Of a stretch of 7,902 bases of DNA, positions 337 through 4,048 are shown in pieces; the stretch's first letter is position 1, and each line of letters opens with the position of its first letter. Made by a program: the position numbers and the translations under genes. Below the pieces are notes generated by a model. That model saw nothing but the letters and a program-made list of their open reading frames with translations, was not told where the DNA came from and did no database searches. Origin of the DNA: a bacterium (GTDB lineage Bacteria; SM23-31; JAUVVT01); contig JAUWXV010000174.1 in assembly GCA_030616165.1 (NCBI GenBank), positions 1 to 7,902 of the forward strand, given 5' to 3'.

Positions 337-1392
337 ATGCAGAGTTTTTTGCCAGATAAAATTTTTATTGAAAAGGGCTGTGAGAATAATGTTTTAAGTC
401 TTAATATTTTGAAAAGACTTTCTCGTATTCCAATAGAATATTTTGATGGAAAAGACAATAAATATTTAAATCAAAACGCTTTAGTTATAAGAAAATATAA
501 AGGCAATTTTTTTAAGCGTTGTCCGGGCAGTCCAGATGTGATTTGCTGTAATTATTACGTGCTTCAAAATGCAGAAAACTGCCATCTTAACTGCACGTAT
601 TGTTTTTTACACGAATATTTCAAAGGTAAGGCAATAGTCATTTATTCAAATATTGAGAAAATGTTTGATGAAATAGATAGGATATTGAATAAAAATCAGC
701 GAAGATTTTATCGCATAGGGACAGGAGAATTTTCGGACAGTCTGGCTCTTGATGATTTGACAAATTTTAGTAAATCAATCGTTCCATTTTTTGCTGAATA
801 TAATAATGCTCTCCTTGAACTGAAGACTAAAAGTATCAATGTAAATAATTTACTTGAACTCAATCATAAAAAAAGGACGGTTGTTTCATGGTCAGTTAGT
901 CCCGATAAGGTGATTTATGAGGAGGAGAGTTTATCTCCATTGTTGGATGAGCGATTAAAGGCAGCAAAGATTTGCGCCGAGAAGGGTTATCGGATAGGAT
1001 TTCACTTTGACCCTGTAATTTATTATCAAGGATGGGAAGAGGATTATAAAATAGCAGTAAAAAAAATTTTCAGTTATGTACATCAAAAGGAGATAATTTG
1101 GATAAGTCTTGGAAGTTTCAGATATGTGCCTGAATTTAGGAATATTATCAGGCAAAAATTTCCACGAAGCAAAATTATTTATGGTGAGCATATTTTGAGC
1201 AATGATGGGAAAATGAGATATATCAAGCCCCTTAGAGTTGATATTTATAAGAAAATGCTCTCCTGGATAAGAGAATACTCGAAAGATGTTTTTGTTTATT
1301 TATGTATGGAACCAAAAGAAATATGGAAGAAGGTATTTAACCTTGATTTAAAAGAAAGTGGTGACCTTGAAAAACTTTTTCCCAGAAGTTAA
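337..1392 (+). CDS. Spore-photolyase-like (SPL family) radical SAM protein
   Basis: A 351-residue predicted cytosolic iron-sulfur enzyme. The radical SAM motif is C82-x3-C86-x2-C89, with the CX3CX2C spacing that binds a [4Fe-4S] cluster and S-adenosylmethionine. It is preceded by C62-P-G and C70-C71, which I recall as typical of SPL-like proteins from non-spore-formers. The order R-F...S-D...D-D-L-T (about 124-141), the central barrel and the GWEEDY segment (about 227-232) follow the layout of Bacillus SplB, whose length (342) is close. The SplB hydrogen-donor cysteine (Cys141) aligns with Glu131 and the second tyrosine of the relay (Tyr99) with Phe90, so photoproduct lyase activity is doubtful and the substrate is unknown. 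The ATG has no clear Shine-Dalgarno site, but the N-terminus starting just before F-x-P-D-K-I fits the family. It converges with the minus-strand gene ending at 1408, with a 15-base gap. Confidence 0.88.
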   Translation: MQSFLPDKIFIEKGCENNVLSLNILKRLSRIPIEYFDGKDNKYLNQNALVIRKYKGNFFKRCPGSPDVICCNYYVLQNAENCHLNCTYCFLHEYFKGKAIVIYSNIEKMFDEIDRILNKNQRRFYRIGTGEFSDSLALDDLTNFSKSIVPFFAEYNNALLELKTKSINVNNLLELNHKKRTVVSWSVSPDKVIYEEESLSPLLDERLKAAKICAEKGYRIGFHFDPVIYYQGWEEDYKIAVKKIFSYVHQKEIIWISLGSFRYVPEFRNIIRQKFPRSKIIYGEHILSNDGKMRYIKPLRVDIYKKMLSWIREYSKDVFVYLCMEPKEIWKKVFNLDLKESGDLEKLFPRS

Positions 1393-2886: not shown

Positions 2887-2891
2887 AGGAG
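2887..2891 (+). promoter_or_regulatory. Shine-Dalgarno site that favours a TTG start at 2900
   Basis: AGGAG (2887-2891) overlaps the first base of the GTG at 2891, so it cannot serve that codon. It lies 8 bases before the in-frame TTG at 2900, an ideal distance. No other purine-rich site lies at a usable distance upstream of 2891. Confidence 0.6.
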
Positions 2892-2899
2892 TGAGTATT

Positions 2900-4048
2900 T
2901 TGAAAACTTCGGAAGACGACAAAAATAGAACGAAATATGCCAAAGATAATTTAACAAAAGCAAGATACTACAAATCAGCCGGTGATTTTAAGAAATCAAA
3001 GGAGTTTGCAATAGAAGAATTCAAACTTAAGATTATTCAGGGCAATTTAAAGATGGCTGAAATGATACAAAAAGAATTTAATCTTCCTGCTGAGGCAGTA
3101 AATAGTTATGTTTTAAATGCCTTAGAAAAGAATAAGGAAAAAGGGAAACATGAAATTGCGGCAAGGATAGGAAAAATATTTAAACTTTCTCCAGATAAAT
3201 ATATCTCATCGGCGATAAAAGCATTTGAAACCTATATTAAAATGGAAATGTATAAAAAAGCGTTTCAGATAGAAAAGGAGTTCTCAATTCCATACAATGA
3301 AATAAAAAACTTGATGATTGAGATATTTGAGTTAAATGTTTCCAAGAAAAGGTTTGAAATGGCGGTATTTATAGCAAAAGAATATAAAATATCTGGTGAA
3401 AGGGTGATGAATGCTACAGAAAAAACACTCCGAAATTATGTTTATTCTAACCGATTTGATGAGGCTGATGAGCTTTGTGATAGTCTGAAAATTCCGAAGA
3501 GAAGTTTAATGAAAGTGGCTGTTGATGAATTTAAAAGGCGATTCAATTCAGGAGATTATGCTGGTGCTACGTTTATAAAAAAGCATTATAAAATACCCAA
3601 TGAAAATGTGCATGGTATAGTGCTGAAAGTTTTCAATTATCATATAAATAAAAAGATTTTTGATGTTTCAAAGTCACTCCTGAAAGAATATAGTCTGCCA
3701 AAAGAAAAAGTTCGCTCGATTGCTGAAAAAGTAGTGGAGGATTTATTGGCAAAAAATGACTTTGCAACGATTCATAAGATTTCAAAAGAATATTCATTAG
3801 GTAAGGACTTTATAAAGAATGCTGCAGTCAAGGTTTTTAAAGAAAAAATGACTCAAAAAAAATATAATACCGCCATTAATATGAAAAATGAGTTTAAAAT
3901 ACCACGGGACCAAATTTTAAATACTGTTATAAAAGAATATAAAAATTGTGTGAATTCCAAGCAAATAAGATTAGCAGAACTAATAAAAAGGGAGTGTTTA
4001 GGAGAAAAAGAAGGTTTTTGGGGAAAATTATTGAAAAAATCAAAATAA
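2900..4048 (+). CDS. Alpha-solenoid protein of ten 34-residue helical repeats
   Basis: No named family recognised. With the TTG start the protein has 382 residues; the numbers here count from the GTG at 2891 (385 residues). Units of exactly 34 residues begin at 40, 74, 108, 142, 176, 210, 244, 278 and 312, with a partial tenth at 346-371 and no insertions between them. A degenerate half-unit ending G-D-F-K-K-S-K-E-F lies at about 28-39. Recurring positions are aliphatic 2, F/Y 14, A 17, I 20, E 23, F/Y 24, I/L 26 and P or S 27, so each unit looks like two antiparallel helices in a TPR- or PPR-like way, without the classical TPR glycine and alanine pattern. The product is Lys-rich, has no signal peptide or membrane segment, and ends in a basic amphipathic tail, G-F-W-G-K-L-L-K-K. 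A scaffold or binding role is inference. The aldolase gene follows after 63 bases. Confidence 0.8.
   Translation: MKTSEDDKNRTKYAKDNLTKARYYKSAGDFKKSKEFAIEEFKLKIIQGNLKMAEMIQKEFNLPAEAVNSYVLNALEKNKEKGKHEIAARIGKIFKLSPDKYISSAIKAFETYIKMEMYKKAFQIEKEFSIPYNEIKNLMIEIFELNVSKKRFEMAVFIAKEYKISGERVMNATEKTLRNYVYSNRFDEADELCDSLKIPKRSLMKVAVDEFKRRFNSGDYAGATFIKKHYKIPNENVHGIVLKVFNYHINKKIFDVSKSLLKEYSLPKEKVRSIAEKVVEDLLAKNDFATIHKISKEYSLGKDFIKNAAVKVFKEKMTQKKYNTAINMKNEFKIPRDQILNTVIKEYKNCVNSKQIRLAELIKRECLGEKEGFWGKLLKKSK

Follow-up and report, generated by a model that had tools for sequence, protein, structure and literature searches.

The window, a stretch of 7,902 nucleotides, encodes a protein that is predicted with high confidence to form a rod-like superhelix of about ten helical hairpins. 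From its structure and its distribution, we are confident that this protein belongs to a real, unnamed repeat family within a known fold class. What is new about the family is its sequence type; the fold is known.

The open reading frame runs from GTG 2891 to position 4048 and comprises 385 residues, or 382 when read from TTG 2900. The placement of a Shine-Dalgarno-like motif relative to these two codons (Table 1) suggests that TTG 2900 is probably the start; residues are numbered throughout from GTG 2891, with the 385-aa reading. Comparison with the closest homologue, which comes from another genus and is 60 % identical over 179 aligned residues, gave a dN/dS of ~0.15-0.18, indicating that the gene is under purifying selection and encodes a maintained protein.

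Table 1. Features of the solenoid gene and its product, with positions in the window
Feature	Position	Strand	Description and basis
Shine-Dalgarno-like motif	2887..2891	+	AGGAG; overlaps GTG 2891, 8 nt before TTG 2900; sequence reading
Solenoid protein gene	2900..4048	+	Likely start TTG 2900, stop TAA 4046-4048; open reading frame, homologues in six genomes, dN/dS
N-terminal capping hairpin	2903..2977	+	Residues 5-29; helices 5-16 and 20-29 in the model
Nine full 34-residue units	3008..3925	+	Residues 40-345; most consist of a helix of 17 and a helix of 10
Most conserved polar cluster, candidate ligand site	3527..3652	+	E213, R217 (unit 6); H251, K254 (unit 7)
Tenth, C-terminal unit	3926..4006	+	Residues 346-372; period and model
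C-terminal basic amphipathic tail	4007..4045	+	KEGFWGKLLKKSK; residues 373-385, core GFWGKLL; low pLDDT, outside the solenoid

Elsewhere in the window, positions 337-1392 (+) encode a radical-SAM protein that Pfam assigns to the spore photoproduct lyase family (SPL 5.6e-32); it scores far under the NCBIfam equivalog cut-offs and possibly has another function. Between DUF2203 and the solenoid gene lies a palindrome, GGGCAGAACA...TGTTCTGCCC, at 2636-2669; this region has 41 matching places in the genome, the window's own counted, and was therefore taken as a dispersed REP- or MITE-like element. A functional link to the aldolase gene 63 bp downstream of the solenoid gene was rejected, because the closest orthologue (in G001) has a convergent phosphofructokinase-like gene there instead.

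Self-comparison of the 385-aa reading revealed one sharp peak, at a lag of 34 residues, where the BLOSUM62 self-similarity was +0.54 compared to -0.73 (sd 0.11) in 1000 shuffles (z = 11.3). All other lags between 28 and 41 gave values of -0.64 to -1.07. With the register starting at residue 40, nine full units follow one another without indels, and a tenth runs into the tail. Similar residues recur at unit positions 5 (F), 14 (F/Y), 17 (A, in 8 of the 10 units), 20 (I/L/M), 22-23 (K-E), 24 (F/Y), 26 (I/L) and 27 (P/S). The units are merely 6-32 % identical to one another, which points to an old array. The first full unit is preceded by a conserved helical hairpin, at which the conserved stretch DNL.KARY.K..GD is found; D19, N20, K23 and D32 are invariant in the subfamily sequences covering these residues. 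A preliminary description of this DNA had proposed an exact 34-residue period with about ten units and no indels, had named consensus positions that recur in the units as described, and had regarded the array as old rather than recently expanded in tandem, all of which was borne out. Its start coordinate for the gene was likewise 2900.

The AlphaFold2 model of the window protein, computed from ten aligned sequences, shows a regular solenoid with a mean pLDDT of 89.6, in agreement with the alpha-solenoid of 34-residue hairpins expected from the sequence. Helices of typically 17 and 10 residues alternate over residues 20-370, and pLDDT values below 50 are limited to a few residues at the N-terminus and 13 at the C-terminus. 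The alternation of a longer (mostly 17 residues) and a shorter (10-11) helix is common to this model and to that of a distant paralogue of 540 residues (mean pLDDT 91.0), which has helices of up to 23 residues in its middle part and a separate terminal helix (526-539). The matches obtained with Foldseek and VIA were TPR, PPR, HAT and SNAP-like solenoids and were local only, with Foldseek TM-scores of 0.1-0.35 and VIA Z-scores of at most 8.7, values such as have been reported for arrangements that are common in helical proteins. None of the matches listed covered the superhelix over its full length. The designed and natural TPR-like solenoids among them (LapB, APC5, IFT, HAT-repeat splicing factors) are alike in the local stacking of helix pairs but differ in the overall superhelix. 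As modelled, the protein falls into the known class of TPR/PPR-like helical-hairpin solenoids, and its superhelix as a whole is unmatched.

Searches of the window's genome and its relatives yielded 44 member proteins with 455 units, fragments at contig edges being counted. The unit consensus of the family is ALKAFNKLLKKGKYEKALEIKKEFKLPKEEIKEA. Several members each were found in all six sampled genomes of the window's GTDB phylum (MAGs of the candidate-division-KSB1 type), and none in 380 genomes outside the phylum at E = 1e-6. A strict peptide pattern run against 84,980 named genomes hit five loci only, on contigs that correspond in size to contigs of four of the six phylum genomes. Phage records and viral contigs contained no relative, leaving a phage origin unsupported. 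Each genome carries about ten diverged paralogues, each in its own, often conserved, gene neighbourhood.

The tree, which covers the window's half of the family, contains three groups. Members of the first mostly have 490-540 residues, and five of them are located downstream of gatB, in some cases with a threonine-synthase-like gene in between; the order gatA - gatB (- threonine-synthase-like) - solenoid member was read by eye in five genomes (L083, L104, L108, L111, L117). The second group comprises proteins of 385 residues that adjoin either lepA and thiL or a rhomboid-protease-like gene; by eye, we assigned the order lepA - solenoid - thiL at L085 and L092, and the rhomboid-protease-like neighbour in three genomes (L094, L095, L099). 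The third is the window's own 385-residue group, found in four genomes, in whose neighbourhoods no constant gene names a partner. The window member groups with that of G001, a genome of the same family, and then with those of G002 and G004; this branching agrees with the kinship of the genomes (90/90 support) and indicates vertical inheritance of the group. Protein length and unit number hardly vary within the two 385-residue orthologous groups.

Further members were located at L089 6752-8521, L090 3-1535, L091 7156-8886 and L105 5609-7090. They make up a third branch, which is more diverged, and two of them lie near hydrogenase-maturation-like genes. At L084 5895-8717 (-) (G000:C42), a 541-residue member lies ~40 bp upstream of an ArsA/Get3-like ATPase gene (assigned by eye), which is followed by a gene for a predicted membrane protein starting with MDESW..ILRLFRI.PPS; relatives of the latter also adjoin members in L120 and L121. 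The gene at L087 4061-5182 (+) (G000:C280), truncated at the end of its contig, encodes a fusion in which a class III nucleotide-cyclase domain (Guanylate_cyc 2e-13) lies N-terminal to the 34-residue units. This fusion would fit a role of at least one paralogue in signalling or recruitment.

Most family members end in a short amphipathic stretch that is not part of the repeat. These tails read GFFSKLFG, GFFSKLLK, GFWGKLLKKSK and similar in the window's half of the family, and in the other half and in other paralogues they are longer, such as GIITWIIELIKSILRIFF and FFTWLLELIKKILLW. Of the 39 C-terminally complete members, 14 have the motif [GRT]-h-h-[SGK]-[KR]-h, defined post hoc once the tails had been inspected, within their last 24 residues; 0.3 are expected from shuffled tails, and 1 of 186 neighbour proteins has the motif there. 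The basic amphipathic tail, already pointed out in the preliminary description, is conserved across the family. The core GFF-S-KLF of the window's branch is nearly identical to the membrane-targeting tail of E. coli MinD, which in strain K-12 ends in EEEKKGFLKRLFGG. The closest likeness is seen in the gatB-linked paralogues, where KKGFFSKLFG or KKGFFKKLFG stands beside KKGFLKRLFGG of MinD; both are basic and amphipathic and place KKGF-(F/L)-x-(K/R)-LFG at the extreme C-terminus. The window protein's own GFWGKLLKKSK is a looser match. Unlike in MinD, the tail is borne by a repeat protein and not by a ParA-type ATPase, and the likeness is one of sequence. The first hypothesis for the tail is therefore anchoring to the membrane: by analogy to MinD, it probably sticks to the cell membrane. 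The MinD tail is weak alone, and firm membrane binding needs two or more copies (PMC6803595). Short amphipathic tails are not restricted to lipid and can also bind protein or DNA; TubY, for example, binds membranes as well as DNA through its C-terminal region (PMC7762940).

We tentatively favour a reading in which the window protein is a cytoplasmic, membrane-peripheral helical-repeat adaptor or scaffold that keeps a ligand, either anionic or a protein, at the inner membrane. Some ten TPR/PPR-like hairpins, of a sequence type not described before, form the superhelical rod predicted above, and the ligand would be held on the side of the rod marked by positions 4, 8 and 11 of the longer helix, above all at the candidate site formed by E213, R217, H251 and K254. 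These four residues lie on two successive long helices, at unit positions 4, 8 and 11. R217, H251 and K254 are invariant among the nine subfamily sequences, and residue 213 is E or D. Conservation at unit position 8 is good throughout the array, and the clustering of invariant polar columns gave p ~0.02, with few sequences. The ligand would most likely be a protein or another anionic partner, because the window's subfamily is strongly basic: the net charge per 100 residues is +6.0 to +9.7 in all nine 385-aa sequences, with a median at the 99.5th percentile when compared to 185 neighbouring proteins. The strong basic charge, described as a lysine-rich surface in the preliminary description, is thus real in this subfamily. 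The C-terminal GF[FW].KL tail may act as a weak MinD-like membrane anchor, in which case the rod would bring its partner to the inner membrane, and clustering of several copies would make this recruitment stronger. The family would have arisen in or before the ancestor of the phylum and then split into paralogues; each of these is kept in a gene neighbourhood of its own, which suggests that every paralogue has a separate partner.

The same charge would also suit the main alternative, a basic solenoid with nucleic acid or the ribosome as its ligand, like PPR, TALE and other basic solenoids, with a tail that aids polyanion binding rather than anchoring. Nucleic-acid binding by the solenoid, tentatively suggested in the preliminary description, is possible, and paralogues do adjoin lepA-thiL and gatAB; taken as the main function, we consider it somewhat unlikely, since the gatB-linked branch is mildly basic only and the other 28 members are neutral on average (median -0.4). 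The PPR proteins cPPR, PPR10 and dPPR, designed ones included, are among the Foldseek matches and share with the family a helical-hairpin superhelix, a basic surface and a G-x-F/Y-x-x-A turn. However, in PPR proteins the RNA code resides in the first residues of the longer helix, and the equivalent unit positions 29-33 are among the least conserved between orthologues. Moreover, the unit has 34 residues and not 35 (303 spacings of exactly 34, seven of 35), its second helix and loop are shorter, and the Pfam PPR model responded to a synthetic idealised consensus only (0.0015; 19 bits over a short stretch, the cut-off being 25). TALE repeats are near-identical 34-residue repeats with a variable di-residue, whereas the window units are diverged as described above. 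The structural matches listed include no TALE, an absence that does not speak against a TALE-like fold. The unit junctions do mimic a helix-turn-helix, and for this reason the phrog_10045 'HTH' match (1.5e-5), a sum over units with no single stretch passing, was rejected as a DNA-binding domain. Finally, the tail resembles a membrane-targeting sequence.

It is unlikely that the protein is an ordinary, much diverged TPR-type protein-protein adaptor, with the tail as a mere helical cap and no membrane role. The fold class is identical: TPR proteins are likewise tandem 34-residue helical hairpins, appear among the Foldseek and VIA matches, and have the G-x-F/Y-x-x-A turn that is common to TPR and PPR. 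Weak, scattered matches to TPR_19, TPR_1, ANAPC3 and Clathrin_H_link were obtained among the paralogues, but the first helix of the family is longer (mostly 17) and the second shorter (10-11) than in TPR, and the TPR signature was absent in every register tested over 357 units. In the register fitting A20, small residues (G/A/S) at TPR positions 8, 20 and 27 account for 1, 95 and 1 %, and proline 32 for 3 %; the family has F/Y where TPR needs small residues at 8 and 27. TPR_12 matches 78 places in the window's genome, none of them on contigs with a family member. In addition, the tail is conserved beyond what the fold demands, and its motif is rare in neighbour proteins.

Scans of the window protein against Pfam, NCBIfam, PHROGs and PADLOC returned nothing over a curated cut-off, where one exists, and PDB sequence searches with the protein, an orthologue profile and a two-unit profile gave chance matches only. 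In the Pfam families listed for 21 paralogues, no repeat model scored strongly, the best TPR match being TPR_19 at 4.9e-3. The above-cut-off Pfam scores of the idealised consensus (Clathrin_H_link 1.5e-9, DUF5663) were treated as an artefact, because four identical short matches are summed. The earlier view that the protein is neither TPR nor PPR by sequence is upheld. Its claim of novelty stands as far as no strong TPR or PPR profile match was found; the fold stays TPR/PPR-like, and the novelty is thus confined to the sequence family.

A lineage-specific coat or skeleton, polymerised on the inner membrane from several paralogues like membrane-coat solenoids, is highly improbable: the roughly ten paralogues per genome do have membrane-tail-like C-termini, and 9 of 21 members match Clathrin_H_link weakly (best 1.2e-3), but such matches are expected for any helical repeat, and the members examined contain no beta-propeller or other coat domain, with no propeller among the 25 most frequent Pfam families of the 21 members. 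The membrane-coat-like proteins of Planctomycetes-Verrucomicrobia-Chlamydiae (PVC; PMC2799638) are also bacterial alpha-solenoids with a possible membrane role, but differ in repeat and phylum and in their N-terminal beta-propeller, of which the all-helical model of the 385-residue window protein has none.

The results define an unnamed helical-repeat family with a consensus of its own, present in every sampled genome of its phylum and in none of those searched outside it. A profile built from the 34-residue unit would name genes that current pipelines leave hypothetical, and the regular unit is a possible scaffold for repeat-protein design. We regard it as quite improbable that each cell has a membrane-organising scaffold system, unknown from other bacteria, made up of some ten solenoids that are anchored to the membrane and either recruit a partner each or assemble together. 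Should the tails be membrane anchors, these bacteria would have an entire set of lineage-specific adaptors at work on the inner membrane.
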